This document shows, piece after piece, positions 1 through 33,570 of a DNA stretch of 33,570 nucleotides (within the stretch, counting starts at the first letter, position 1; each line of letters begins with the position of its first letter). The stretch is from the IMG/VR virus record IMGVR_UViG_3300009431_001364, positions 1 through 33,570 of that record; one strand, given 5' to 3'. The position numbers and the translations under genes were made by a program. The stretch comes from a virus. The notes below the pieces were generated by a model. It ran no database searches, was not told the DNA's origin, and saw only the letters and a list, made by a program, of their open reading frames with translations.

Positions 1-1233
1 ATGTCCTTTTACAAGCCAGCGCGCGGCTACGCGCTTCTGGGCGCATTCTTACTCTTGTTTCTTGTTGGATGCGATTCAGGTGGAGATGATGGTGGAGAGT
101 TCTGCGGCAATGGGTACTGCGGGTCGGGGGAGAACATCTCCAACTGCCCAGTTGATTGTGGAGGGGGTGGTGAAACCTGCGGCAATGGGTACTGCGGATC
201 GGGCGAGAATGTATCGAACTGTCCAGCGGATTGTGCTGGCAGTGGTGAAACCTGCGGCAATGGTTCCTGCGGATCAGGCGAGAATGTATCGAACTGCCCC
301 GCTGACTGCAGTACAGATGAAACGGACTGTGGCAATGGTATTTGTGAAAATGGGGAAACAGCGTGGGATTGTCCTGCAGACTGCGGAGATTGCACTCACG
401 ATTCCGACTGTGCACCTGACGAGGCGTGCATTGAAGGGACATGCAAATCAAATGATGTCGCTCAGTTCGCATTCCGTGGTGAAGTGCGAGACTGGTTGAC
501 TGGCCAAGGGGTGTCTGGAGTAACGGTGCATCTATCAAGTTCCCTATCCGAAAAGACGGATGGTGTCGGAAATTTTGCATTTCCTACTCTGTCAGAAGGA
601 ACATACGCAGTTGAGTTTTCTCATCCGAAATATCAGGAAAAGACTGTTGAAGTTGTTCTTTTCGGTGCCGACAAAGATATTGTTGTTCAGTTTCTCCCAA
701 AAGAACTCGTCGAGGTTAGGGTCAACGGTTCACTGCAGAGCGGAGCGGTTGTCTACGACAATTCAACACAGGTAGCGATAGTTGTTCAAGACTGGGAAAA
801 GATGACTGGCTGTGCCCGTAAATCCGACGCCGGTTCTGCTTGTAAAGAATACAACACTGACTTACGCATTGTGCTGGAGCGATCCGCTGGCGGATTCCAA
901 CAAACAGCGCAGGTTAGAGCGTGGGCAGAGGGCAAGTACAAGGGAGGCAATGTCAACACTGATACTCGAGGGGGGTGCACCAGTGTTGTGCCCGTAGACA
1001 TAGAACGCGAAACCGTTGAGGGTTCATCCTATATTGTTGGTGGCTTCGTGTCGGCTGTGACTGTTTTCGACACGTGCTGTTGTCATCATAGCGCGTATGA
1101 CGATAATCCTAGCTGCGGTGGCAACTATACATACACAGATCCTGCTTGCGAAGAGGAGCTCGAGCCGTTTGAGGACGCGCTGCAGTTGAGTGTTGAGTTC
1201 TTTCTGTTCAGCGAATCGTTGCCAACGTATTAG
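1..1233 (+). CDS. Cys-rich repeat lipoprotein with carboxypeptidase-regulatory-like domain
   Basis: The protein has 410 residues. An N-terminal signal peptide ends in the lipobox LVGC with the lipidated Cys at residue 24, so it should be exported and lipid-anchored; Asp at +2 would act as an inner-membrane retention signal if E. coli Lol rules apply. Residues 35-128 hold four 25-residue repeats of the form CGNGxCxxGEx...CPxDC, a pattern common in secreted proteins of Myxococcota-like bacteria. Residues 131-148 add another Cys motif. Residues 157-232 resemble a carboxypeptidase-regulatory/Ig-like beta domain (GVSGVTV...TDGVGNFAF). The rest, with a CCCHH cluster near 359-363, is unrecognised. 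Base composition is less GC-rich than in the phage genes that follow, and the gene is convergent with them. Function is unknown; surface binding is only a guess. The ATG is the first base of the window, so an upstream start cannot be excluded. Confidence 0.85.
   Translation: MSFYKPARGYALLGAFLLLFLVGCDSGGDDGGEFCGNGYCGSGENISNCPVDCGGGGETCGNGYCGSGENVSNCPADCAGSGETCGNGSCGSGENVSNCPADCSTDETDCGNGICENGETAWDCPADCGDCTHDSDCAPDEACIEGTCKSNDVAQFAFRGEVRDWLTGQGVSGVTVHLSSSLSEKTDGVGNFAFPTLSEGTYAVEFSHPKYQEKTVEVVLFGADKDIVVQFLPKELVEVRVNGSLQSGAVVYDNSTQVAIVVQDWEKMTGCARKSDAGSACKEYNTDLRIVLERSAGGFQQTAQVRAWAEGKYKGGNVNTDTRGGCTSVVPVDIERETVEGSSYIVGGFVSAVTVFDTCCCHHSAYDDNPSCGGNYTYTDPACEEELEPFEDALQLSVEFFLFSESLPTY
103..384 (+). 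repeat. 75-bp in-frame tandem repeat (four units)
   Basis: Four copies of a 75-bp unit, the last one partial, encode the 25-residue Cys-rich repeats of the lipoprotein. Units 2 and 3 are the most alike at DNA level, and unit 4 has diverged (CENGETAWD), which suggests expansion by slippage or unequal crossing over. Each unit carries four Cys in C-x5-C-x8-C-x3-C spacing, plausibly disulphide-bonded outside the cytoplasm. Confidence 0.85.
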
Positions 1234-1333: not shown

Positions 1334-2173
1334 TCAGTTTGCAGCTGCTGTGCAGCGGCACCCCGGATGCTTTGGCGGCCCCTCCACCTCATCAATCCCG
1401 AACACCTTCCCGTCCAGCGCCCGGCAGATCGGACATGTCCTCGAATCGTCGGCAATGAGCCAGCGGACCTTGGTGATGCCGACCTGCCGGTAGAAGACCT
1501 TCCGGCCCTCGTTGTGGGCGCGGAGAGTTTCGGTGCGGGCGATGAGGGTGGCGCGGCGCTGGGCGGTCTTGAAGACGGTTTTACCGGCGCGGCGGAACGC
1601 GTCTTTGTCCTTTACGACGCGGCCGATGTCCCGGGCCACCTCGGGGATGGACTTGCCGGTCAGCACTCCCTGGGTCACGGTGCGCTTGATGCCGGAGGCC
1701 AGCTCGGCCAAGACGTCACCGAGGAGTTGGACCTGGTAGTTGGCCAGGAAGTCCACCGCGGCCCGATCGATGGTTGCAAAGGTGCGCTTGACCATCGCGT
1801 TGCGTGAGACGTCGGTGAAGTCCTGGAAGTCGGGCATCTCCATGGCCTCGAGATGGGAGACCCCGTCCTCGATGCCGAGACGCATGGACTCCTTCACGTT
1901 ATCCCGGATGCCGACCTTCCAGTTGACTTTCAGCTCCTTGGCGATGCCCTCGACCTCCTTCTCCAGGTCCCGCAGGATCGCCAAGCGCATCTCCTGCCAG
2001 GGCTTGAGTGCAGCCTTCTCCTCGAACCGCCGGATCTGCTTCGCTACGTCGTTGGCCGCGCCGTCTAGAGTTTTCAGGAGGTCGCCGACGCGGTCCTCAG
2101 CATACCTGTCCCGGCGCTTGATGGCTTTGTCCACGGCCTTGCTGATGCGGCGCTGCTGCTCTGTCTCAGCCAT
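1334..2173 (-). CDS. Phage minor head / head morphogenesis protein (Mu gpF / SPP1 gp7 type)
   Basis: This 279-residue protein is the last gene of the packaging operon. The C-terminal third has the family hallmark: ARTET followed by an Asn/Gly segment, then WLIADDSRTCPICRALDG and PPKHPGCRC, that is, a C-x2-C...H-P-x-C-x-C metal-binding-like motif. The first ~130 residues are charged and helical. Family members are minor capsid components that associate with the portal during procapsid assembly. I chose ATG 2173 (MAETEQQRR) because it follows the stop of the upstream gene by 5 nt and has an AAGGG element in front; the longer open frame upstream reads through the neighbouring gene and is not phage-like. 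No capsid gene follows: the next gene is the convergent lipoprotein. Confidence 0.88.
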   Translation of the reverse strand: MAETEQQRRISKAVDKAIKRRDRYAEDRVGDLLKTLDGAANDVAKQIRRFEEKAALKPWQEMRLAILRDLEKEVEGIAKELKVNWKVGIRDNVKESMRLGIEDGVSHLEAMEMPDFQDFTDVSRNAMVKRTFATIDRAAVDFLANYQVQLLGDVLAELASGIKRTVTQGVLTGKSIPEVARDIGRVVKDKDAFRRAGKTVFKTAQRRATLIARTETLRAHNEGRKVFYRQVGITKVRWLIADDSRTCPICRALDGKVFGIDEVEGPPKHPGCRCTAAAN

Positions 2174-2178
2174 TGCCG

Positions 2179-3132
2179 TCACCCTTCCAGTACGAGGGGC
2201 AGGTCCGGCGCGCCGGCCAATGGTCCCCACTCGCTCTCCCCGGATTCCGGGATGTCGGCCATGCCGTAGCAGGTCCAGGGCCCCGTCTCGCCAGGCCGCA
2301 CCCGACGCCAGGTCCACGGCCGACCGAGCGTGGCCTTGCTGCCGTCCGCTGCCAGCCGGTACAGACCGGGTACTGCGGGGAGGCCTGTGCGAGGGTCCTT
2401 GCACCCCATGCTCGGGCCGATGCGAAGGACGCAGATGACGTGTCCGCTGCGGCGCTGGCAGAGGTACCACTGGGATCCGTGCCGGGGCTTGGCGAGGTCG
2501 GCGAGCTCTACGACGGTGCTAACCGAGGTTGTGTATTCCTTGAGGCCGCGGCAGAGCTTCCCCCTGATGACCTCGCCCTCCACGCTGCACAGGGGCAGCA
2601 TCCGGTTCGGCATGCTGCTCGTCGGGCCCCGGCCGGTCCGCCAGGTGGGGTAGAGTCCGTTGTCCGGGTGCATCGCCCGCATCCACCAGGAAGTCAGGAG
2701 CCAGGCCGCATGGCCGCAGGTGGCTCCGTGCCGTCCGGAGCCGTCGCTGGACAGGGGAACAACGTAGGCCTGTTCCTTCCCGGCTTCCATCCGCTCCCAA
2801 GCGGCGATACTGCTTCTCCTGTACTCTGGGGTCATCCGGTGGCGCTCGACGTCGAACAGAACAGCCAGCCCCCGTGAGAGGCGCTCTGCGCGGGGAGACG
2901 GGTCAGGGATCACCTCGCCGCTCGATTCTCCTGCCAGCCGCGGCCAGGTCTTTCCTCCGCTGTAAACAACCACACCGTCCACGGCCAGGCCCCGGTCCTC
3001 CTGGTAGGCCCGCACAGAGCGGTCGAGCTCCGCATCGAACAGAGTCGCATCGGGCAGGGCGTAGCCGGCCCCGCGCATCAGCGCCCTTAGCTCCATGACT
3101 GCTTTCGAGTCCGTTCCAAGTCGTAGCAACAT
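2179..3132 (-). CDS. Peptidoglycan-binding protein with putative cysteine peptidase domain
   Basis: The protein has 317 residues. Residues 1-68 match a PG_binding_1 domain (LRLGTDSKAVMELRALMRG...FDAELDRSVRAYQ...LAVDGVV), which binds cell-wall glycan or peptide. The C-terminal part (about 100-317) is not a family I can name. It has a helix-capping Cys at 139 (GATCGHAAWLL) and a later SGHVICVLRIG with His 231, the order and surroundings expected of a papain-fold NlpC/P60 or CHAP-like wall hydrolase; this assignment is inference. ATG 3132 has a strong Shine-Dalgarno sequence (GAGGAG, 7 nt). An alternative ATG at 3159 overlaps the portal stop (ATGA). The gene sits between portal and minor head protein, where a virion-associated wall hydrolase, or an endolysin out of its usual place, would be unexpected. 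Confidence 0.75.
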   Translation of the reverse strand: MLLRLGTDSKAVMELRALMRGAGYALPDATLFDAELDRSVRAYQEDRGLAVDGVVVYSGGKTWPRLAGESSGEVIPDPSPRAERLSRGLAVLFDVERHRMTPEYRRSSIAAWERMEAGKEQAYVVPLSSDGSGRHGATCGHAAWLLTSWWMRAMHPDNGLYPTWRTGRGPTSSMPNRMLPLCSVEGEVIRGKLCRGLKEYTTSVSTVVELADLAKPRHGSQWYLCQRRSGHVICVLRIGPSMGCKDPRTGLPAVPGLYRLAADGSKATLGRPWTWRRVRPGETGPWTCYGMADIPESGESEWGPLAGAPDLPLVLEG

Positions 3133-8967: not shown

Positions 8968-9630
8968 TCATCCCGCCCCGCGGCAGGCTGCTGTCGCCTC
9001 ATGAAGGTCATCTCTTGATAGCCGGGCCAATCGCGACAGCGCTTGGTGGTACTCGCTGTGGGCGACCCTGGTCATTACGGCGAGGTTCAGTATCCGGTTG
9101 TCAGTCTTGTTCCCGTTGATGTGATGTACGACTTCGTTGCTTCGGAGCGTCCTGCCGAGCGTTATTTGCATGACAAGTCGATGCTCGAAGATGTGCCCCT
9201 CAGCATCGGCACCAGGGTAGTCGCGACCCACAAGGATACGAACATATCCGCTACTTGTGATTCGTCTCCCTCCACGCCAGTGCGGGCTTGCCTCTCGACG
9301 GAGTCCCCTGGGCGGTGGCTCACGGGTCAGGCCCAGTCGCGTGATGCATGTCGTGACGGCGGTCCGTCCACAACCAAAATGCGCTGCCATCCTCTCCAGT
9401 GGCATTCCATTCGCAAACAGCCACCGTACATGGTCCTCGTCGAAATCGATTCTGCGGGGGTGTGGCCGTCCCCGATAGGGACCGGGACGCTTGCGGACCC
9501 AGCCCCGCTCCCTGATGAACCTGCTAACGGGCGGGCGGGAGCAGCCGAAGTGCTGTGCTATCGTCTCCAGCGGAACCCCGGCATCGAAAAGACGCTTCAA
9601 GACCTCCTCGTCCAACTCAATCGCTTTCAT
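8968..9630 (-). CDS. HNH endonuclease with tandem helix-turn-helix domains
   Basis: This 220-residue protein carries two similar HTH repeats (residues 6-42 with LETIAQHFGCSRPPVSRFI and 62-100 with LERMAAHFGCGRTAVTTCI), then an HNH_3-type nuclease domain: EHRLVM (149-154), VVHHINGNKTDN (167-178), NLAVM and a final His 191. This is the architecture of phage homing-like endonucleases, where the HTH repeats read a longer target. AAGGTGAG precedes the ATG. It is the last gene of the leftward operon. Such genes are often selfish passengers beside terminase or recombination genes, though some assist packaging. Confidence 0.88.
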   Translation of the reverse strand: MKAIELDEEVLKRLFDAGVPLETIAQHFGCSRPPVSRFIRERGWVRKRPGPYRGRPHPRRIDFDEDHVRWLFANGMPLERMAAHFGCGRTAVTTCITRLGLTREPPPRGLRREASPHWRGGRRITSSGYVRILVGRDYPGADAEGHIFEHRLVMQITLGRTLRSNEVVHHINGNKTDNRILNLAVMTRVAHSEYHQALSRLARLSRDDLHEATAACRGAG

Positions 9631-10047: not shown

Positions 10048-10665
10048 TCAGCCCTCCTTCTGCGTGTCATCGGTCTCCACCTCGACCGCTTCGACATCGA
10101 TGACCTCTGCTTCTGCTGGCTTCGGAGCCGATAGCATTCCTCGCTCGCGCATCCTTCCAAGCAGCGCCCCCATCACTTCAGCTGGCGTGGCGCCGGTCGT
10201 CCGAGTCGTTTCCTTGGATTCCCTGGTGACCTGGAGGGCCTTCAGATTCCGGTTGAGCAGCCGGTCCAGAACGTCCAGTGCGTCGGCCTGAGCTCCACCG
10301 GCCACTGCCACTCGCAGCTTGGTCTCGTAGAGGGCCAGACGCTCGAGGGTCATCAAGTCGGTTTCGGAGGGCTCGTGGACGTCCTCCTTGTATCTGGCCA
10401 GCAGCTCCTCGTAGATCGGGATCTCCTCGGCCGGCAGCCGCGATGAGTAGGCCCCGTGCTTCACCGCATTGGTGTTGCCTTTGGGAGGTGGCCCCCCTGC
10501 ACCAGGGGGCTTAGGACTGCCCTTCGGACGACCCTTGCCTCCTCTGCTTCCAACCGCTCCGCCGCCATGGAACTTGCAGTAGTCGCTACCGGGCACCGCC
10601 TTGTTCTTGCATGGGAGGCCGGTTCGCCTCGAGAATCCCTTGCAGATTCGCTTCACCTTGGCCAT
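10048..10665 (-). CDS. Small-terminase-like phage protein (GNxNAxKHG family)
   Basis: A 205-residue protein. The N-terminus has a zinc-knuckle-like series (C-K-G-F-S-R-R-T-G-L-P-C, then SDYCKFHGGG), followed by a Gly/Pro/Lys-rich linker and PPKGNTNAVKHGAYS, a signature of proteins encoded beside terminases and often annotated as small terminase subunits. Residues ~90-170 are helical (ETDLMTLERLALYETKL, DVLDRLLNRNLKALQV) and the C-terminus is acidic. The small subunit recognises the packaging site and loads the large subunit. I chose ATG 10665 (MAKVKR), which has AGG-containing sequence upstream; ATG 10677 is an alternative. Unusually, it is in the leftward replication operon, 4 kb from the large terminase gene. 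Confidence 0.55.
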   Translation of the reverse strand: MAKVKRICKGFSRRTGLPCKNKAVPGSDYCKFHGGGAVGSRGGKGRPKGSPKPPGAGGPPPKGNTNAVKHGAYSSRLPAEEIPIYEELLARYKEDVHEPSETDLMTLERLALYETKLRVAVAGGAQADALDVLDRLLNRNLKALQVTRESKETTRTTGATPAEVMGALLGRMRERGMLSAPKPAEAEVIDVEAVEVETDDTQKEG

Positions 10666-12171: not shown

Positions 12172-12260
12172 GGGGGGCGTGTCCCGGTTCACTGTAGTAA
12201 GAGTTAAGCATTAAGCAGTATGCCATTCTCTTCTACAGTGAACCGGGACGCGCCTCCCCC
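12172..12260. repeat. Large inverted repeat (hairpin) at the end of the primase-helicase gene
   Basis: Perfect 17-bp arms GTCCCGGTTCACTGTAG (12181-12197) and their complement (12233-12249) are extended outward by an imperfect G-run/C-run pairing and inward, after one bulge, by AAGAG/CTCTT. The loop has a tandem TTAAGCA pair. The right arm encodes the last residues of the primase-helicase and the loop contains its stop codon. No T-run follows on either strand, so it is not a simple terminator. The GTCCCGGTT core recurs in the 42-bp motifs at 17175 and 21644. It could be a small mobile element (MITE-like), an operator pair or an RNA-processing structure. Confidence 0.75.
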
Positions 12261-15200
12261 GTTCTTCTCTTCCGATTGGTCTTTTGCCTCTTCGGGATTG
12301 CCCAGCGGATGGTCCTTCAGGAAGCGCTGGGCCGCCTCCAAGCAGCGTTCGTCGCGGCCCCATACTTCGACCGCGACTCTGCCACTTCCGGATATCAAGA
12401 CTACTTCGAAGCGCTCGAAATCGCAAATGCGTCGCACCTGCTCCTTGGCTTCGTAGAACCGGCTGCGGGTGTAGCGGGAGTCAAGAGGCACAGGTGGCGC
12501 ACAGCCGCTTCTCACGAGGGCTTTGCGGATGCCGATGTGCTGATCTGACTCGGGGCCCACGAGGGGCCAGAGCGTCCTGGCCGGTGAGACGAAATCGAGA
12601 TTGGCGTACTGGAGCTGGGCGAGCTGCACCAGGTGGTCGCGCCGTAGGTTCTTTCGCTTCGTCGGCTTGCGGTCCAGCATCTCCCGCACCGACAGCAGAG
12701 TGGTCACCGGGAGCTCTGGCACGACCAGGTTGGTGAACAGGATGATGTCCTTGTCCGCGTCGAGGCCGGGTCGGATGCGGTGGATGGACTGGAGCACCTC
12801 GTCCTCCCGGGCGGTCTCTGCGATGGCTTGAATGAGGGGCTCCTTGTACACCATCACCTGCACCCCGACATCGTTGCCCACGTAGCGCCTGACGACGAAC
12901 TCGGCGTCGGTCACCAGGTTGTCCTGGTAGTAGAGGGCGCCGGCGTATCGCTGGACCGTGTCGGGCGTCATGCCGGGCATGCCAAAGATGACGACCCGCT
13001 TGAAGTCCTTGAACGCGTTGGAGCCGCGGTTGCCGTAGAAGTGTGCGACGTCGGCCAGCGGCGGGAGGTGCGGCCGGATGTGAGGCTCCAGGGCTTGCTT
13101 GCAGATGACCAGCGTCCTGGGTTCCTCAGCGACTACCTTGCGCAGCAAGTCGAGCATGCGCTTACGGAAGACGGCCTGGCGTAAGGACTCGTAGCTGCCC
13201 GAGGTGGAGTACACCTGGGCCACTCGGTTCTCGAGGCGCATCGTGGGGGCGTAGACCCGCGGTCGGATCCCGAAGAGGCGCTCGTAGATCTCTGACTTGC
13301 CGGTCGCATCGAGGATGACGGTGGGGACAGGCAGGGGAGGGGGATCCGCCTTGCTGACGACCTCGAGCACGTTGGTGAATCGTCGTCGGCCCTTGTCCTC
13401 CCCGTCCTTCTCGGGGATCCGGACGCTCTGGAAATGGAGGCGTGAGAGGTTCGACTTCGGATCCCGGACGAACAGCTCGTAGCGCAGAACAGGGAGGAGC
13501 GCGTTCAGGAACTGTAGGGGGATGACGGCCTGGGGATCCCGGGGGTCGAAGTGCAACTGCTCCACCACGGAGTCCAGGGACCTCGGGATGGCCTTCATCG
13601 CCTCATCCAAGGTGATGGGGATGGCAAGGGAGCCAGTGCCCTCGTAGAGGGTTCTGTGGGCCTCGTCCATGCGTTGGCGCAGAGGGGTGCCGGTAATCGG
13701 CTGGGTGACCCGAGTATCGGCCAGCATGGAGGCCAGCCCCTCCAGGAAGCAGATCAACGACGTCAGCTTGGCAGCCTCGTTGTAGCTCTGGAATGACTCC
13801 AGCTCAGTCCGGAGCTCCTCGAGCATGTCCGCGACCTGCCGGACATCGCGCTCCCTGATGCGGACCTCCTCGATGAACTGCCCGAGGACATCCTCGTCGA
13901 AGACCACCACATCGAACCCCTGGGCGTAGTCCTTGACCTTGTGGAGGTACATGGGCTGCTGGACGAAGAAGCTGCTGACGCGATCCTCGAACTGGAGGAA
14001 GTAGCCACATCCCCCCCTGTGCTCACAGGTACGGCAGAGGCGCTGGTTGACGTTGATGCGGCGCTCCCTGAGACGGTGGGCCAGGTCCGGGTAGTGGCAG
14101 TTGGCGGGGAGGACCTCGCCTGAGGGGAGCGTCGCTTCCCCATGCCGACCCTCGATGCGTCGCCAGTGCGGCTTGAGGTACTGAGGGATGTTGTCGTACA
14201 AGTCGAGGCGCGTAGCGATCCACAGGGTCCGCAGTCCAAGGTCTGCCAGGAGGTTGAAGACCGTGGTGGTCTTACCTGAACCAGCTGGGCTCTTCACGAG
14301 GAGGGGAACGATGCGGCCTTCGCCGTGGACCCCGCCCCGGGCCTCGCTGATGTAGTCGGTCACCCGCTGGGCCATATCAGCCCGAAGAACCTTCACATCG
14401 GAGAACTCCATGCGCTCCGGCTCGAGGCGTGGAGCCTCAACTCTCGTCTCGGTCACCTTGTGCAGGCGTCGGGAGGTGGCAGTCTCGCGGGTGTGTGCGT
14501 GCAGCTCGCAGGTGTCGTTGCATTCGAAGCCGAGACGTCGGGCCGTGAAGCAGTTGAACTGATACCGGTCGTGGCGGAAGACAGTGGTCACCGCAGTGCG
14601 GGTGGAGCCGGCGATTTCCTGGGGCGAGGAGTGCGAGAACGGAGCGAGCACCTTGAGCGCGTGGCGCACCAGGAAGTCGGTACTCTCATCGAGTTTCCGG
14701 CCGATGGCCTTCAGGTAGCTGGCGAGCAAGACCGAGACCTGATTGCGGTTTGCTGTCGCAGGGTCCGGCACTCCAGTTGTGAGAGCCTCCCGGATGCAGG
14801 GCGGGTGCACCAACTCGTTGAGACCAGCGACAACTACGTAGTCTGCCTCGCCCAGGTCGTCGAACACGACCCGCGGCTGGGATTGCCTGGCGGCCGGGAG
14901 GCACTTGAGCCGTGAGGAATCTACGACGAACCGCTTCTGCGACCTCACTCTGGCTGCGCCCAGTGCATACAGACCGGCCAGGTACTCACAATGCCCCTCG
15001 GGCAAGGGCGGGACCGTGACCGGGTTCTCGGCCAACTGCAGGATGTGTTTTCTGCCGGCCTCAAGGTCAGCGCGTGTGAGAGCGATCTTGAACAGGCCCG
15101 TCTTCTGGTGCCTGGTGTTGGGCAATCGGAACTGTCTGCGGTTGGAGTAGATGGCCCAGTCGATATGGATGTCGCCCGTTTCTTCCTGGATGAGCTGTGC

Positions 15201-15902
15201 GATTCGGCGGTTGACCAGGTGGTTGTCCTCGGCCAAGGGCTGGGCGAAGGCCGTATGCGGGATGACGACGTGGAACCCCCGCCCCCCGGAGAAAAAGAGC
15301 TGGTGCGGGATCTCGTAGAGGCTGCAGAAGTCGAGGAGCTTGAGGACCGAGGGGATGAGCCCATCGAGCCCGCCGTCCTCTTCCTCGTCACCAGCGTCGA
15401 AGTCGAAGGCGAGGTCCACGTGGCACTGCAGCGGGACCGTCTCTTTGGCCAGGTCCACGCGCTCCTGCAGCGCGGGGATCTGGACCGCCATCTGCTGCAC
15501 GTGCGCGTTCTGTCGAGCCAGCCACAGCTTGTACTCTGCAAGCATGACCTTGAGTCGTGCGTGCGCGTAGTGTAGCGGATATCGGTTGAGCGTCGTGTAG
15601 ACGTTGAAGCGGTCGTAGATGCTGCAGAAGGCGTTGATGGCCTCCTGCCTGTCCTCGAGGGGGAGCCATTTGATCCGGTAGGGGCTGGACCGCAGATGCT
15701 CGTTGTAGACCTGGGGGACCAGGTATCCGAGTTCCTCGCGGCTACGGTCTGCAAAGTCCGTTCTCGCAATGAAGCTGGCGAGCTGCTTCTTCGTGTGCGT
15801 GTGCCAGACCTCCCTGACCAGGGTCTCCGGCGGCAATCGGAGGAAGTGCCCCACCATCTCGTCGAAGAGGGGTGAGTAGTCCGGGCGGTCGCGAAAGCTC
15901 AT
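12204..15902 (-). CDS. Primase-helicase fusion (AEP primase + SF2-type helicase)
   Basis: A 1232-residue replication protein. The archaeo-eukaryotic primase domain shows motif I DLAFDFD (163-169), motif II SGGRGFH (205-211) and motif III around DWAIYSNRRQFRLPN (248-262). A Cys/His cluster (Cys 451, 461, 465, His 467) follows. The helicase part has Walker A SPAGSGKTT (538-546), Walker B DVVVFDED (664-671) and LDATG later. Between them lie Cys 602, 623, 626 and 632, positioned like the Fe-S cluster of XPD/DinG helicases. It would lay primers and unwind the element's DNA. The ATG overlaps the stop of the RecD2-like gene (ATGA), so the two are made together. The extreme C-terminus is encoded by one arm of a hairpin and may have been altered by it. 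Confidence 0.85.
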   Translation of the reverse strand: MSFRDRPDYSPLFDEMVGHFLRLPPETLVREVWHTHTKKQLASFIARTDFADRSREELGYLVPQVYNEHLRSSPYRIKWLPLEDRQEAINAFCSIYDRFNVYTTLNRYPLHYAHARLKVMLAEYKLWLARQNAHVQQMAVQIPALQERVDLAKETVPLQCHVDLAFDFDAGDEEEDGGLDGLIPSVLKLLDFCSLYEIPHQLFFSGGRGFHVVIPHTAFAQPLAEDNHLVNRRIAQLIQEETGDIHIDWAIYSNRRQFRLPNTRHQKTGLFKIALTRADLEAGRKHILQLAENPVTVPPLPEGHCEYLAGLYALGAARVRSQKRFVVDSSRLKCLPAARQSQPRVVFDDLGEADYVVVAGLNELVHPPCIREALTTGVPDPATANRNQVSVLLASYLKAIGRKLDESTDFLVRHALKVLAPFSHSSPQEIAGSTRTAVTTVFRHDRYQFNCFTARRLGFECNDTCELHAHTRETATSRRLHKVTETRVEAPRLEPERMEFSDVKVLRADMAQRVTDYISEARGGVHGEGRIVPLLVKSPAGSGKTTTVFNLLADLGLRTLWIATRLDLYDNIPQYLKPHWRRIEGRHGEATLPSGEVLPANCHYPDLAHRLRERRINVNQRLCRTCEHRGGCGYFLQFEDRVSSFFVQQPMYLHKVKDYAQGFDVVVFDEDVLGQFIEEVRIRERDVRQVADMLEELRTELESFQSYNEAAKLTSLICFLEGLASMLADTRVTQPITGTPLRQRMDEAHRTLYEGTGSLAIPITLDEAMKAIPRSLDSVVEQLHFDPRDPQAVIPLQFLNALLPVLRYELFVRDPKSNLSRLHFQSVRIPEKDGEDKGRRRFTNVLEVVSKADPPPLPVPTVILDATGKSEIYERLFGIRPRVYAPTMRLENRVAQVYSTSGSYESLRQAVFRKRMLDLLRKVVAEEPRTLVICKQALEPHIRPHLPPLADVAHFYGNRGSNAFKDFKRVVIFGMPGMTPDTVQRYAGALYYQDNLVTDAEFVVRRYVGNDVGVQVMVYKEPLIQAIAETAREDEVLQSIHRIRPGLDADKDIILFTNLVVPELPVTTLLSVREMLDRKPTKRKNLRRDHLVQLAQLQYANLDFVSPARTLWPLVGPESDQHIGIRKALVRSGCAPPVPLDSRYTRSRFYEAKEQVRRICDFERFEVVLISGSGRVAVEVWGRDERCLEAAQRFLKDHPLGNPEEAKDQSEEKNGGGASRFTVEENGILLNA

Positions 15903-26131: not shown

Positions 26132-26619
26132 ACGACGGAAACAGCAGCAGCAAGGGTAGGGAGGGGATTCTGCGCCAGCTCGCGGAGCTGGACGACCTGC
26201 CCACCGACGAACTCAAGGCCCGGTGGCGGGCCCTGTACGGGAAGGAGCCGCCGCGGTTCAATCGGCAGTTCCTCATCAAGAGATTGGCCTACCGTATCCA
26301 GGAACTGACCTATGGCGGGATGCCCGACGAACTGCGGGACCGGATGGACCGGCTGCTTGAGGCCGAGGGTTACAACGAGCTGGGCGTGAAGGTGCGGGAC
26401 CGGAAGCCGGCGACCGACAGGCCCATCCCGGGCACGATGTTCATCCGGGAATGGGAAGGAGAGCGGCACGAGGTGACGGTGCGCGAGGACTGCTTCGAGT
26501 ATCGCAGCATGCCGTATCGGTCCCTGTCGGCCATCGCCAGGAAGATCACCGGCACCCGATGGAACGGACCGGCGTTCTTCGGACTGCGCAAGGCTGGGGG
26601 AGCCCATGGAACGAAGTAG
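26128..26619 (+). CDS. DUF2924 protein
   Basis: A 163-residue DUF2924-family protein: LRQLAELDDLPTDELKARWR, PPRFNRQFLIKRLAYRIQEL, then PIPGTMFIREWEGERHEV, FEYRSMPYRSLSAIARKITG and TRWNGPAFFGL. The second half resembles a small DNA-binding-like module repeated in restriction and recombinase-associated proteins. Family members nearly always precede a serine recombinase in phages and integrative elements, as here, where the two genes overlap by 14 bp. It may assist or regulate recombination, but the family has no established function. Confidence 0.85.
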   Translation: MNDGNSSSKGREGILRQLAELDDLPTDELKARWRALYGKEPPRFNRQFLIKRLAYRIQELTYGGMPDELRDRMDRLLEAEGYNELGVKVRDRKPATDRPIPGTMFIREWEGERHEVTVREDCFEYRSMPYRSLSAIARKITGTRWNGPAFFGLRKAGGAHGTK

Positions 26620-28621
26620 CCTGCAGATCGCAGAATCATCCCCTGAGACACGGCCCCAGATCCGATGCGCCATCTACACTCGAAAGTCCACGGATGAGAA
26701 CCTCGACTCGGATTTCAACTCCTTGGACGCGCAGCGCGAGGCCGGGGAGAACTACATCCGGTCACAGCAGCACGAGGGATGGGTAGCACTGGCTGGCAGG
26801 TATGACGACGGCGCGTACTCAGGGGCCACTCTGGAGCGACCTGCGCTGAAACGCCTGATGACCGACGTCCGCGCCGGCCGGCTCGATACCATCGTGGTCT
26901 ACAAGATCGACCGGCTCTCCCGGTCCCTGATGGACTTCACCAAGCTGGTGGAGCAGCTGGAGCGGCACAAGGTCTCCCTGGTCGCAGTGACCCAGCAGTT
27001 CAACACCACGACCAGCATGGGTAGGCTCACGCTGAACATCCTCCTGAGCTTCGCGCAGTTCGAGAGGGAGGTCTGCGCGGAGCGCATCCGGGACAAGATC
27101 GCGGCAGAGAAACGGCGCGGTCGATATCTCGGCGGGGTGCCCCCACTGGGGTACGACGTCGACCGCGAGCGGAAACTGTTGCTTGTGAATCCTGAAGAGG
27201 CCGCGCTGGTGCGCCTGATCTTCCGGCGATTCCTGCAGCTCGGATCCGTGGTCGCCCTCATCAAGGAACTGAACGAGAAGGGGCACACTACGAAATCGTG
27301 GACCACGAAGAAGGGCAAGGTCCGCCCTGGCGTCCCCTGGAACAAGAACCACGTCTACCGGCTGCTGAACAACCCCATCCTCATCGGCCTGATCCCGCAC
27401 AAAGACAAGACGTTCCCAGGCCAGCACGAGGCCATCATCGAGAAGTCCTTGTGGGATGAAGTGCAGGAGAGCCTCAACGACGGGGGCCAGCGCGCCCGGG
27501 CCAACGCGACCAGGTCGAAGACGCCCGCGATGCTGAAAGGCGTCATCCGGTGCGGGCACTGCGGCACCAGCATGGGGATTACCTTCACTCGCAAGAACGG
27601 CCGGACTTACCGGTACTACCTCTGCGACCGGGCCAACAAGAACGGGTACGACGCCTGCCCCGTGAAAAGTGTCCCCGCCGGCGACGTCGAGAAAGCGGTC
27701 ATGATGCAGGTGCGTCGGGTCTTCCAGGCACCTGAAATCCTGGTCGAGGCGCTGACCTGCATTCAGAAACGGGAAGGAGAAGAACATGGTCGACTGGCCG
27801 CGGAGCGGGACGCGCTGCAGGCCGAGATCGCTACGACCAAGGCCAACGCCCAAAGGCTTATCGCCAGCCATCTGGGCGGAGACGATGGCGGCACATTCGT
27901 CTCCGAGGAGATCGCCCGTATGGAGCGTACCGTCGAGGATCTCAACCGCAAGCTGCGGATGGTCACGGCCGAGCTCGACATGCTGGAGCGTACACCGACC
28001 ACCGAGGCCCGGCTCATGGAGGAGCTCCAGGTCCTCGACCGCATCTGGGACGAGCTCTTCCCTGCGGAGAGGGAACGCCTCATCCGTTTGGTAGTGGACA
28101 GTCTCACCGTGAACTCGGATGGATTGCTCCTGGTGCTGCGGGCGGATGGGCTGGGGAGCCTGATGGCGGAGTTAGGGACGATGGAGGCGGCGCTGGAATC
28201 AGGGGGTACGAAGGGACGCAGGCCAAAGCGCGGCCAGCCACGGGCCGAGGTCGACGCCGACGCAGGCCGGATCACCCTGCGCTTACCGATGAAGTTCAAG
28301 AGGAAGGCTGGGCGCAAGCAGGTGATCCTGCCTGATGAGGCAGGGGTTCATTCGGAGCACTCTCCGGTGCAGGGCGCTTTGGCCATCGCTGTTGCCCGTG
28401 CGCATCGCTGGCTGCAGCTCCTCGAGGACGGGCGATTCTCATCGCTCAGCGAGTTGGCCGAGGCCGTGGGCATGGACCCGTCCCTGCTCCGTCGGCACCT
28501 CAATTTGACCCTACTGAGTCCGAGAATGGCGAGGCGGGTGCTGGATGGGACGGAGCCGGAGGGGTGGTCGAGGCGTGGGTTGAGTCGAGACGTCCCTATG
28601 CAATGGGACCTGCAGTCCTAA
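26606..28621 (+). CDS. Large serine recombinase
   Basis: A 671-residue protein. The resolvase domain has catalytic Ser 28 (IYTRKSTDE), SLDAQRE (39-45) and the conserved YKIDRLSRS (99-107); the recombinase domain follows (VPPLGYDVD, NNPILIG), then a zinc ribbon with Cys 316, 319, 340, 351, a coiled coil (~390-470) and a C-terminal HTH (FSSLSELAEAVGMDPSLLRR, around 577-596). This is the standard large serine integrase layout with a long C-terminus; all key residues are present. It can integrate or excise DNA between att sites. It is the last gene of the rightward operon and is coupled to DUF2924. A second, tyrosine-type recombinase is encoded in the same window. Confidence 0.93.
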   Translation: MERSSLQIAESSPETRPQIRCAIYTRKSTDENLDSDFNSLDAQREAGENYIRSQQHEGWVALAGRYDDGAYSGATLERPALKRLMTDVRAGRLDTIVVYKIDRLSRSLMDFTKLVEQLERHKVSLVAVTQQFNTTTSMGRLTLNILLSFAQFEREVCAERIRDKIAAEKRRGRYLGGVPPLGYDVDRERKLLLVNPEEAALVRLIFRRFLQLGSVVALIKELNEKGHTTKSWTTKKGKVRPGVPWNKNHVYRLLNNPILIGLIPHKDKTFPGQHEAIIEKSLWDEVQESLNDGGQRARANATRSKTPAMLKGVIRCGHCGTSMGITFTRKNGRTYRYYLCDRANKNGYDACPVKSVPAGDVEKAVMMQVRRVFQAPEILVEALTCIQKREGEEHGRLAAERDALQAEIATTKANAQRLIASHLGGDDGGTFVSEEIARMERTVEDLNRKLRMVTAELDMLERTPTTEARLMEELQVLDRIWDELFPAERERLIRLVVDSLTVNSDGLLLVLRADGLGSLMAELGTMEAALESGGTKGRRPKRGQPRAEVDADAGRITLRLPMKFKRKAGRKQVILPDEAGVHSEHSPVQGALAIAVARAHRWLQLLEDGRFSSLSELAEAVGMDPSLLRRHLNLTLLSPRMARRVLDGTEPEGWSRRGLSRDVPMQWDLQS

Positions 28622-28755
28622 CCACGGATGAACTCGTAGATCTCAGTCAGCACCGAGACATCGAAGCCCTGGATTGCTCTGGTATTTCTTGCCCATTTCG
28701 TGTTAATTGAGCACTTAGGCTGGCCTGATCCACCGAAGGTACGCGTAGGGGCACG

Positions 28756-31407
28756 ATGAGCACGTTGTTTGAGAGACTCGGAGAGGAAGTTGCCTCCTGG
28801 AAAGAGGCTGGATATCCAGTTGAGGACTGCCCGGCCCTCGGGGAGATCCTCGACTGGGCCCGCATCGAGCAGACTGAGACGCTGCGCTTCCTCCGGCCGC
28901 CCCAGTTGCGTGCGTTGGAAGTCTACTGGTATCTGCGTCTGGTTAAAAAGACGCCCCATGTGCTCGAACTCTACCAGGACCTGTTCTCAAAGCAGTCCGA
29001 GCGGCTTGCGGCACTCGGGTTGGAGGGCGAGGGCATAAGCCGAATCATCATTGACGATGGCATCGATGCCCTCTGGGAGGCCGTCCGGTCCGACGACGAG
29101 TTCGTCCACTCCATGAAGTTGGAATCTCTTAGGGAGACACTGACGCTGGACTACCCCAGCTACATCCTTGCTCTGGCTATGGGGGCCGGTAAGACCATTC
29201 TCATCGGAGCCATCATCGCCACCGAGTTCGCCCTGGCCCTGGAATACCCTGGCGGCGAGTTCGTGCACAACGCTCTCGTATTCGCTCCCGGAAAGACCAT
29301 CATCGAGTCGCTGCGCGAGCTGGCCGATATCCCGTACGAGAAGCTCTTGCCGCCACGGCTCCATAAGCCCTTCGCTGCATCAGTGAAGCTAACGTTCACC
29401 CGGGACGGCGAAAAGGACGTGCCCGTTATTCGGGGCTCCTCCTTCAACTTGGTAGTGACAAACACCGAGAAAATCCGCATCCAGAAGGAGACCATCCGCA
29501 AGTCGGACATCGGCAGGCTGTTTACTGCCGAACAGGAGGACGAGGCTAAGGCGGAAGTGGCCAACCTTCGCCTCCAGGCAATTGCAAGTTTGCCCCACCT
29601 GGCAGTCTTCTCCGACGAGGCGCATCACACCTACGGGCAGTCTCTGGACAAGGGACTCAAGAAGGTACGCAAGACGGTTGACTACCTTGCCCAGAACACC
29701 AGCCTCATCTGCGTCGTCAACACGACAGGGACTCCCTACTACCGCCGGCAGCCTCTCAAGGACGTGGTGGTCTGGTACGGTCTGTCCGAAGGAATCCAGG
29801 ACGGCATCCTGAAAGATCTGGCCGGGAACGTTCAAGCCTACGATTTCGAAGGCGACGCTGCAAACTACGTGCGGCACGTCATCCTCAACTTCTTCGAGGA
29901 CTACGGCGACGTCCAACTCGCCAATGGGGCGCCGGCCAAGCTGGCGCTGTATTTCCCACAGACCAAGGACCTGGCTGAACTCAAGCCAGTTATAGACCAT
30001 GCGCTTGTCGAAGTGGGCCTGAGCCCCGCACTAGCTTTGGTGAATACTTCCGACGACAAGCTCACTTCCCAGGCTGATATCGACGCTTTCAATCGGCTCA
30101 ACGACCCGTCGAGCCCGCATCGTGTTGTGCTCCTGGTGAACAAGGGGACCGAAGGCTGGAACTGCCCGAGCCTGTTTGCATGTGCCCTGGCCCGGAAACT
30201 GAAGACCTCCAACAACTTCGTCCTCCAGGCATCTACCCGTTGCCTGCGTCAGGTTCCGGGCAACGACCGCAAGGCCAGGGTGTACCTGTCGAAGGACAAC
30301 TTCTCCATTCTGGACCGCCAGCTCCGGGAGACGTACGGAGAAACCATTGAGGATCTCAATCGCTCGGGCCAGGAGATGAAGCGGGCCCAGATTGTGCTTC
30401 GCAAGCTGGATATTCCGCCCCTTGTTGTGACCCGGATCGTGCGGACCGTCGTAAGGGGTGAGATGGAGATGGGGGCATTGGCCCTGACTAGACCGAAAGC
30501 CACAACTACCGAAGGTCTCACCAGACAGACGTTCACGGTTGCCGAACAGCAGGCCACCCAAGGCGTCCTCCTCCAAGTTGGCGATACGGACATCATCGAA
30601 GAGGTCGCAGACGTCCTGGACCCCTATGCCGCTGCGGTAGAGTTGGCCGGTCTTTACAGGCTTGCCCTTTGGGATGTCTACGACGAGGTTCGGCGGCTCT
30701 ACGGTCAGGAAGAGATTACCCTAGCCGAGTTTCGAGACCTGGTCAGGCAGGTGGAAGAGCAATCTCGCAACTATGAAGTGACCGAGGAGAAGGTGGATAT
30801 AGCGCTGGCCTTAGTCAGACCCGTCGATGGGTTTGACCGGGGAGAGGACGAGACCGGAGCAGAGGTCTTCACTGCGGACATCGTGTACCCCCGCGACCGC
30901 GCGCATCTCCTCCTCCACCGTGACAAGCTGCAAGGGCAGAACAAACACGACTTCGGTTTTCACTACACCCCATACGAGTTCGATTCGAACCCCGAGCAGT
31001 CTTTCTTCGAGCAGCTCCTCATGGAGCTCAACCTCCATCCCGAGGAGGTTGAGGACATCTACTTCACCGGGGCCCTGACCGACCCGAGCAAGACCGATTT
31101 CTTCGTTGAGTACAAAGACGATAAGGGTAAGTGGCGACGCTACACTCCTGATTTCGTTGTTCGCCGCAAGCCAGCCCCTGGGAAGCCCGCAGGAACTGGG
31201 AAGGCGTACATCGTGGAGATCAAGAAGGCTCACGACCGAGAACACCCGGTGGATGGCGCAACCGGGCGCAAGGCCATGGCCATCAGGAAGTGGGAGGAAC
31301 TCAATCCTGAGCGGCTGAAGTACGAGATGATTTTCACGGATGGTGCGACCATCGCTGCGAATCAGCTCGCCGCTGTCAGGGAGTTCGTGCGCGGAGGCCG
31401 GGATTGA
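28756..31407 (+). CDS. res: Type III-like restriction enzyme, Res (helicase-nuclease) subunit
   Basis: An 883-residue protein. SF2 translocase: Walker A AMGAGKT (141-147), DEAH at 287-290 (FSDEAHH), motif III TTGTPYY, and C-terminal helicase motifs with NKGTEGWNCPSLFACALAR and LQASTRCLRQ. The C-terminal nuclease has P-D at 798-799 (YTPDFVV) and E-x-K at 821-823 (IVEIKKA), the PD-(D/E)XK motif of type III enzymes. It would hydrolyse ATP and cut unmodified DNA together with Mod. The length is typical. Start ATG 28756 after a GGGG element. GC is somewhat lower than in the upstream operon, suggesting separate acquisition. It lies upstream of mod, the reverse of the common order. Confidence 0.9.
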   Translation: MSTLFERLGEEVASWKEAGYPVEDCPALGEILDWARIEQTETLRFLRPPQLRALEVYWYLRLVKKTPHVLELYQDLFSKQSERLAALGLEGEGISRIIIDDGIDALWEAVRSDDEFVHSMKLESLRETLTLDYPSYILALAMGAGKTILIGAIIATEFALALEYPGGEFVHNALVFAPGKTIIESLRELADIPYEKLLPPRLHKPFAASVKLTFTRDGEKDVPVIRGSSFNLVVTNTEKIRIQKETIRKSDIGRLFTAEQEDEAKAEVANLRLQAIASLPHLAVFSDEAHHTYGQSLDKGLKKVRKTVDYLAQNTSLICVVNTTGTPYYRRQPLKDVVVWYGLSEGIQDGILKDLAGNVQAYDFEGDAANYVRHVILNFFEDYGDVQLANGAPAKLALYFPQTKDLAELKPVIDHALVEVGLSPALALVNTSDDKLTSQADIDAFNRLNDPSSPHRVVLLVNKGTEGWNCPSLFACALARKLKTSNNFVLQASTRCLRQVPGNDRKARVYLSKDNFSILDRQLRETYGETIEDLNRSGQEMKRAQIVLRKLDIPPLVVTRIVRTVVRGEMEMGALALTRPKATTTEGLTRQTFTVAEQQATQGVLLQVGDTDIIEEVADVLDPYAAAVELAGLYRLALWDVYDEVRRLYGQEEITLAEFRDLVRQVEEQSRNYEVTEEKVDIALALVRPVDGFDRGEDETGAEVFTADIVYPRDRAHLLLHRDKLQGQNKHDFGFHYTPYEFDSNPEQSFFEQLLMELNLHPEEVEDIYFTGALTDPSKTDFFVEYKDDKGKWRRYTPDFVVRRKPAPGKPAGTGKAYIVEIKKAHDREHPVDGATGRKAMAIRKWEELNPERLKYEMIFTDGATIAANQLAAVREFVRGGRD

Positions 31408-31536
31408 CCACTGCGGGCGAACACGATTCGGCAGGAAGTGGCCCCGGCAGAAACGGGAGTCAGGGTCCCAGAAGTTTGGAACAAGCGGCCCTGGTTCAGG
31501 GGCGTCGGCAGAGCTGAAGAACGCGGAGCGACACGC

Positions 31537-33570
31537 ATGAGCGAAGAGAAGATTACTGTTACTAAGGCGAAGGGACGGCCAATGCTGACATGGGTGGGCA
31601 AGCGCCCCCTGTCACATGTGACCGCATTCCCTGCACAACATATTGAGACGTTCGACCCCGCAGGCGATCTGGGCAAGAAGCGGCATCAGCCGGAATTCTG
31701 GGCAGATTGGCCTGCAGCGTACCCGAAGGGTGGGCTTCTCTTCCACGGAGACAACAAGGAAGTTCTGGCGCATCTGCTGGCAAACGGGTTCCGAGGAAAA
31801 GTAGACCTTGTCTACATCGATCCTCCTTTCGACAGCGGTGCTGACTATGTTCGGAAGGTCAATCTGCGAGGAGGGCCTGGAACGGCCAAGATTGATGGCG
31901 AGCGCTACGCGGTGGGCGAGCAAGTCCAGTACACGGACATTTGGGCCAACGACAACTATCTTCAGTTCATGTACGAACGCCTGCTCCTGCTGCGGGAGTT
32001 GCTAGCTGAAGATGGCACGATCTATCTTCACTGCGATTGGCACAAGAGCCATTTTCTTAGATGCATAATGGACGAAGTGTTTGGGCCGGAGAGCATCCTC
32101 AATGAAGTGATTTGGAAGCGTACTTCTGCAAGGAGCGATTCCAGTACCTTCAATCACATTCACGACGCACTGTTCGTGTACCATAAGGGGACCTACCGGT
32201 TCAATCGCCTGTACTTGCCTCACGACCCGCGGTACGTAGCGAAGTACTTCACCTATAGCGACTCCGACGGGCGGCTTTATGCGACGATTGATGCCACCCA
32301 GGCGGGCCTCAGAAAAGGCTCGTCCGGAGATCCGTGGAGAGGTTTTGAGCCTTCTTCAAAGGGGAACCACTGGAAATTCGCTACGGCAGAGCTAGACAGG
32401 TTGGACGGAGAGGGGCGCATCTACTGGCCAAAAAAGGACGGAGGATGGCCCCGCTTGAAGAGCTATCTTGATGAGGCGAAGGGGGCTGCTGTACAGACGA
32501 TCTGGACAGACATCAAGGCCGTGAATAGCCAAGCGGAGGAACGTGGCGACTATCCGACACAGAAGCCCGAGGCGCTCCTCGAACGGATTATCTCAGCTTC
32601 ATCAAATGCTGGAGACCTCGTTCTGGACTGCTTCGTCGGGTCTGGTACTGCGGTAGCCGTAGCGCAGAAGCTCGGCCGTCGATGGATTGGATGCGATATC
32701 AACAAGGGGGCAATTCAGGCAGTGTCTACAAGGGTACACTCAGTAGTTGACGAGCAACAGAACGAGTCGCGTGGTGCATCGGTGGAGACTCCATCGTTGC
32801 CTGGAATAGAGAAGCCCAGCGACGACAGCATTTGCCCGCCCGCAGCGCAGGCAGCGTTCACCGTCTGGCGCGTCAATGACTACGACCTGTCCGTTCAGCA
32901 CAACGAGGCCGTGAATCTTGCATGCGAGCACATCGGTGTAGAGCGCGCCCGTTCTGACAGCTACTTCGACGGGACACGAGGGTCCTCATTGGTGAAGATT
33001 ATACCGTTTGGGCACCCGCTTTCTCCCCTGGACCTTGAAGAACTGAAGAAGGAACTTGAGGCTCGGCCGGACGAGGACAGGCGCATCACGGCGGTGTGTC
33101 TCGGAATCGAGTTGGCCGCGGTTGCCTGGGTCGAGGATTGGAACCGTCTCCGCAAGGCTGAAGATTCGGTCAACCGGATTGATGTCATCGAACTGCGCAG
33201 CGACCCGAAGTACGGCAGGTTCATCAAACACGAACCGGCCACGGCCAGAGTAACGGTGGAGCGGAAGGCCGGCAAACTTCTGGTAGATGTCGTTGATTTC
33301 ATCTCGCCCACCATCATCGAGCGCCTCAAGGATCAGGCTGGCCTGCTGGCACCGAAGATCGACGACTGGCGCTCCATGGTTGACTGCGTGATGATCGACA
33401 CGGCCTACGACGGCCAAGTTTTCAACGTGAAGCTGTCCGACGTGCCCGAGAAGAAGAACGATCTCGTGCTCGGCAAGTACGAACTGCCCGTCCCCGATGG
33501 CGAAACCACGGTAGCCGTGAAGGTCATCGACATGTTGGGGGAAGAGGTTCTTGCTATTAAGATCGTCTGA
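31537..33570 (+). CDS. mod: Type III-like modification methyltransferase, Mod subunit
   Basis: A 677-residue N6-adenine methyltransferase. The catalytic motif DPPF (95-98, VYIDPPFDSG) comes before the SAM-binding motif DCFVGSGTAVA (364-374), the order of beta-class enzymes such as Mod. TQKPEALLERII (341-352) and a target-recognition region between the motifs are present. The C-terminal ~280 residues are not recognised beyond possible Res contact. I chose ATG 31537 (MSEEKITVTK), with GGAG 9 nt upstream; the frame is open to 31438 but without a good start. The stop ends exactly at the last base of the window, so the gene is complete. Forms a restriction-modification pair with Res, 129 bp upstream. 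Confidence 0.9.
   Translation: MSEEKITVTKAKGRPMLTWVGKRPLSHVTAFPAQHIETFDPAGDLGKKRHQPEFWADWPAAYPKGGLLFHGDNKEVLAHLLANGFRGKVDLVYIDPPFDSGADYVRKVNLRGGPGTAKIDGERYAVGEQVQYTDIWANDNYLQFMYERLLLLRELLAEDGTIYLHCDWHKSHFLRCIMDEVFGPESILNEVIWKRTSARSDSSTFNHIHDALFVYHKGTYRFNRLYLPHDPRYVAKYFTYSDSDGRLYATIDATQAGLRKGSSGDPWRGFEPSSKGNHWKFATAELDRLDGEGRIYWPKKDGGWPRLKSYLDEAKGAAVQTIWTDIKAVNSQAEERGDYPTQKPEALLERIISASSNAGDLVLDCFVGSGTAVAVAQKLGRRWIGCDINKGAIQAVSTRVHSVVDEQQNESRGASVETPSLPGIEKPSDDSICPPAAQAAFTVWRVNDYDLSVQHNEAVNLACEHIGVERARSDSYFDGTRGSSLVKIIPFGHPLSPLDLEELKKELEARPDEDRRITAVCLGIELAAVAWVEDWNRLRKAEDSVNRIDVIELRSDPKYGRFIKHEPATARVTVERKAGKLLVDVVDFISPTIIERLKDQAGLLAPKIDDWRSMVDCVMIDTAYDGQVFNVKLSDVPEKKNDLVLGKYELPVPDGETTVAVKVIDMLGEEVLAIKIV

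Follow-up and report, generated by a model that had tools for sequence, protein, structure and literature searches.

The gene at positions 3132-2179 (minus strand) of the window, by which we mean the whole 33,570-base stretch of an IMG/VR virus record that was analyzed, encodes a putative lysin of 317 aa, as defined by translation, Pfam and a 16-sequence alignment. We favor, without holding it firmly, the reading that this protein hydrolyzes peptidoglycan, is modular and most likely serves as the endolysin of the phage, its gene having come to reside in the head operon in this group of phages. The polypeptide has two parts and carries no fusion to a structural protein; a wall-binding domain followed by a second, candidate catalytic domain is the organization of an endolysin, if the second domain is catalytic as we infer. 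The C-terminal domain is an uncharacterized candidate catalytic domain, and the place of the gene is uncommon and does not define its function.

The operon in the window reads, on the minus strand, TerL (terminase large subunit; 6210-4567, phrog_2, E 4.6e-27), portal (4559-3156, phrog_2739, E 2.7e-46), putative lysin and the MuF-like minor head gene (1334..2173, Phage_Mu_F, E 1.2e-20). The lysin ATG at 3132 was preceded by a Shine-Dalgarno-like GAGGAG, and the MuF ATG (2173) was read from the sequence five bases past the lysin stop. An earlier reading of the sequence alone (the sequence-only reading) had put the gene between portal and minor head genes, and the portal and MuF matches on its two sides agreed with this. 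Its coordinates and residue numbers were also correct; the strand, which it had left unstated, is minus.

Full-length relatives were found solely in IMG/VR among the databases searched. Clade A comprised the window and nine contigs with 67-79% identity; one relative had 45% identity (L014, in record G001); and clade B held five distinct proteins at 25-28% identity in the 16-sequence alignment (L027, L028, L029, L147 and L149), spread over six contigs (13-183 kb). When IMG/VR was re-scanned with the full 16-sequence alignment, no new contigs were obtained. Exactly one copy of the family was detected with the family profile in each of 14 virus records searched. No clade-A record was shown to be a complete genome, so a second lysin in clade A is possible.

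The N-terminal domain was assigned to PG_binding_1 (PF01471), which matched residues 10-55 in Pfam with an E value of 7e-6 and 26.6 bits against a curated cut-off of 23 bits, bearing out the peptidoglycan-binding domain (PGBD) proposed earlier. It was the sole Pfam match above cut-off in the window protein, and its place calculated from the gene start is 2968..3105 (minus strand). PG_binding_1 was found in four further members tested, namely L014, L027, L028 and L029 (E 9.9e-6 to 2.8e-21), and a match was present in 6/6 relatives' records searched, five of the six lying over the cut-off. NCBIfam matches of the window protein were to the PGBD parts of other hydrolases and fell far under cut-off. 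PHROG endolysin families matched the protein over the PGBD only, and the best of these matches was phrog_1224 (E 3.1e-5), described as endolysin and placed in the category head and packaging. With a three-member profile of clade B, the PGBD matched the PDB entries 7rum (Endolysin), 9xps (Endolysin gp144) and 3bkh (lytic transglycosylase). We take 9xps to represent the modular endolysin of the phiKZ gp144 type. Endolysins of this type likewise have the PGBD first and the catalytic domain second in one polypeptide, with matching PGBD sequences. Going by the name under which it was deposited, 3bkh has a lytic transglycosylase as its catalytic domain, whereas the protein described here pairs its PGBD with an orphan domain whose Cys-His-Asp set is invariant.

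The orphan domain was searched as residues 76-317 (2182..2907, minus strand). No Pfam or PHROG family matched this part of the window protein at E 10, and only one weak Pfam match (YuA_Gp49, 0.021) and one weak PHROG match (0.27) were obtained when 11 family members were scanned. A profile of 11 family members retrieved no PDB chain at E 10, and NCBIfam likewise gave no match to the C-terminal domain. The second domain, which the sequence-only reading had called unrecognized, thus stayed without a Pfam, PHROG, NCBIfam or PDB-sequence match. Neither NlpC/P60 (PF00877) nor CHAP (PF05257) was matched in Pfam by the window protein or the 11 members, and a C39 match was absent in all 11. In the phage database, the window protein had weak matches (E 3e-3 at best) that started N-terminally in the best 20 of 36 records, and the two longest among the matches listed ended at residues 131 and 145. 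Searching with the 45% relative's C-terminal domain gave one chance-level match there (E 7), and a full-length clade-B protein matched 38 records, all inside its first 99 residues. No plasmid match was found below E 2, and two matches in bacterial genome contigs were both limited to the PGBD, in pattern-based scans that can miss distant relatives. A convincing match to the C-terminal domain was therefore absent among the phage, plasmid and bacterial records searched.

Cys139, His231 and Asp246 were identical in 16/16 distinct sequences, down to 25% identity. The sequence-only reading had picked out Cys139 and His231 in papain-like order and had tied its case to their conservation among homologues; both residues were present in that order in every sequence, together with Asp246, which it had not mentioned. 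The calculated codon positions on the minus strand are 2716..2718 for Cys139 (candidate nucleophile), 2440..2442 for His231 (candidate general base) and 2395..2397 for Asp246, the candidate third member of the triad, which stands in a DP motif. Thirty positions of the alignment were invariant, including His135, Gly136, Thr138, Cys139, Arg165, Gly167 and Arg168 as well as His231, Asp246, Pro247, Asp263 and Lys266, and Cys139 was the sole invariant Cys. Clade A has 92 residues from Cys to His, clade B 84 and L014 96, and the distance from His to Asp was 15-17 residues across the 16 sequences; in papain-like enzymes the third residue usually lies about 15 to 17 residues after the His. The order Cys, His, Asp with Asp-Pro, as in C39-type peptidases, occurred in 16/16 sequences. 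The median dN/dS was 0.23 and the highest 0.41 (45 pairs, ten clade-A genes), indicating that the putative lysin gene is under constraint by purifying selection.

The structure models obtained with AlphaFold2 were unusable, with a mean pLDDT of 31.8 from the single sequence and 38.8 from 11 sequences, an input that lacked the divergent clade B. In these low-confidence models a helix lay around or just after Cys139 and strands lay on either side of His231, a placement that suits the papain order but is no evidence for it. The family was also compared by hhalign with five papain-like families (C39, C39_2, NlpC/P60, CHAP and transglutaminase) using family alignments drawn from genomes. Cys139, His231 and Asp246 were aligned with the family Cys, His and Asp in both C39 and C39_2, with hhalign probabilities of 2.4% (C39, PF03412) and 0.4% (C39_2, PF13529), neither of them significant. 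The best score, 20.4 with C39, was reached by 0/60 column shuffles and the C39_2 score of 14.5 by 2/60; for NlpC/P60, CHAP and transglutaminase the query score was reached by 22, 7 and 15 of the 60 shuffles, respectively. The reversed query scored higher than the true query for NlpC/P60 (14.7 vs 13.6) and lower for the other four families. As a control, true relatives were joined by the same method (C39 with C39_2 at 98%, NlpC/P60 with CHAP at 77-90%). However, two of eight unrelated natural profiles from the same phages outscored the query, a TerL segment reaching 23.4 with C39 and a portal segment 14.8 with C39_2, showing that the C39 score is no evidence of membership. The register of the triad alone is suggestive of a C39 likeness.

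NlpC/P60 and CHAP are Cys-His wall hydrolases of the broad papain-like group. The window family differs from both in having no Pfam match to them and in hhalign scores that shuffled columns often reached. With C39 and C39-like peptidases (PF03412, PF13529) the window protein has in common the order Cys ... H ... D-P. C39 motifs are expected to have a Gln at about position -6 relative to the Cys. The window family, in contrast, had Gly (11/16), Pro (4/16) or Ala (1/16) and no Gln at position -6, and an invariant His135 at position -4, and its profile match was insignificant. Filing the protein as a C39 peptidase was therefore dropped, given the insignificant hhalign match, the higher scores of unrelated segments and the absence of Gln at -6. 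The C-terminal domain may work like a C39 peptidase; its conserved residues follow a papain-like order nearest to that of C39 peptidases (C...H...DP), and its fold may be papain-like. A Cys-His-Asp set also fits a protease, and together with the head-operon location it would suit a cysteine protease with a job in head maturation or assembly, whose PGBD-like domain had been reused as a protein-binding module. We consider this improbable, since distant relatives retain PG_binding_1 and the gene lies far from the head genes in the 45% relative.

Portal and MuF flanked the gene in 10/10 clade-A records, the window included (the L004 contig has just the end of the portal gene). This fixed slot counts against the endolysin reading, since it may point to a function in the particle. 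The protein might be a virion-associated hydrolase, packaged beside portal and MuF, ejected with the DNA and opening the wall at entry, and both the constant slot and a MuF start only five bases away speak for such a role. However, the lysin is not fused to a structural protein, and in G001, the record of the 45% relative, its gene was found at 27.4-28.4 kb, adjoining a DNA methyltransferase gene, whereas phrog_2 placed TerL at 2.5-4.0 kb (1.4e-29) and phrog_267 placed the major head protein at 6.7-7.6 kb (7.4e-50), about 20 kb from the lysin gene. In clade B, a firm structural assignment was obtained for 0/10 flanking ORFs tested in L027, L028 and L029. One weak portal match (E 0.032) was seen in the L028 flank, in an ORF to which Pfam gave a weak HTH match (0.0084). 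The portal family search gave no match in five clade-B records; the search with the window TerL also gave none in five, a result that shows little as it had no positive control. On balance, the role at entry seems possible but doubtful.

The gap of some 20 kb between lysin and capsid genes in the 45% relative indicates that the family does not depend on a place among head genes for its function. The head location characterizes clade A rather than the whole family, and this favors a lysin gene that is mobile over one that was ancestrally a head component. Of the two readings offered from the sequence alone, the displaced endolysin thus fitted better and the virion-associated hydrolase less well. 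Clade A may have recruited the lysin into the virion. A combined reading would make the family a new Cys-His-Asp hydrolase family that is head-borne in clade A, anchored at the portal and ejected along with MuF, so that the protein is an endolysin elsewhere and an entry enzyme here; we regard this as rather unlikely. We give still less weight to a cargo (moron) gene or effector that travels in the head operon and is directed against the host envelope or competing phages. Gene content immediately behind MuF does differ among these phages, but the variable genes sit after MuF and the lysin keeps to the operon's constant part in 10/10 records, under purifying selection, so that such a role is very improbable.

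If the protein is the endolysin, as we prefer, it would be made late, alongside the head proteins, and kept in the cytoplasm until lysis, consistent with a hydropathy scan in which no transmembrane segment was seen in the window protein. A separate holin would then release it to the wall at lysis, where the PG_binding_1 domain would tether it. His231 would activate Cys139, with Asp246 orienting, and Cys139 would attack peptidoglycan at an amide or peptide bond.

No holin or spanin was recognized beside the window gene, which counts against the endolysin reading. Ten ORFs tested with Pfam in the right half of the window were assigned to replication, recombination or restriction, or to no function, and included no lysis partner. 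In L027, an ORF resembling LLH holins was found some 1 kb away from the gene on the other strand, in a match that fell short of the cut-off (E 0.0097). No known lysis gene was found among ten ORFs tested in G001. G001 and G002 have a lipoprotein in common (37% identity over 100 residues) with no Pfam family above cut-off. These candidates from L027, G001 and G002 are weak and do not decide the endolysin question. The lipoprotein of the two lysin-carrying phages lies at 2671-3222 in L040 and 4601-4948 in L014, and that of G002 is preceded in the same ORF by an N-terminal hydrophobic segment, possibly part of a holin or spanin.

A wall hydrolase among virion genes is described for T7 gp16 (PMC6116005). 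T7 gp16 is a capsid-core protein that acts from the inner core, whereas the present one is a separate 317-aa PGBD protein known from its gene alone. In a phage lysin survey, an N-terminal wall-binding domain was exclusive to lysins from phages of Gram-negative hosts, PG_binding_1 was commoner in Gram-positive lysins, and Peptidase_C39_2 was restricted to Gram-positive lysins (PMC8223927). We count the PG_binding_1 figure among the points against the endolysin reading. On the last count, a C39-like lysin would be unusual if the host were Gram-negative. The portal-lysin-MuF arrangement was not described in the titles or abstract openings of the papers listed for lysins associated with portal or head genes. 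If our reading holds, phage wall-cutting enzymes would gain an additional catalytic domain, unmatched in Pfam, PHROG, NCBIfam and PDB sequences. The defined candidate triad and the two divergent clades offer a choice of proteins for assay, and the portal-MuF slot is a testable case of whether a head-operon lysin is merely parked or is part of the particle.

The slot right after MuF differed between phages (window 1-1233, L002 6639-8853, L042 10247-14349, L003 7481-10479). It was occupied by a lipoprotein-like ORF rich in Cys and bearing a CarboxypepD_reg domain in the window, two lipoprotein-like ORFs (by eye) in L002, a GmrSD_N protein (E 4.1e-14) and a transposase-like ORF (by eye) in L042, and other ORFs in L003; in L017 the next ORF followed directly after MuF. 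L003 carried extra truncated copies of the MuF C-terminus at 8996-9178 and 10213-10416 (73% and 78% identity to the window MuF), downstream of the full MuF and amid inserted ORFs, as if cargo had entered by recombination at the MuF end.

A 1179-aa ORF in L002 (9074-12613) contained two D12 adenine-methyltransferase stretches (Pfam, E 1.5e-33), and its C-terminal part appeared prohead-protease-like by eye only. In the window, a 1232-aa ORF at 12204-15902, which looked like a primase-helicase by eye, adjoined a RecD-like helicase and had no Pfam family at E 0.001. The region 26606-33570 encoded a large serine recombinase and then a ResIII-type restriction subunit, followed at the record end by a methyltransferase-like ORF (by eye), a restriction-modification pair on a virus contig.
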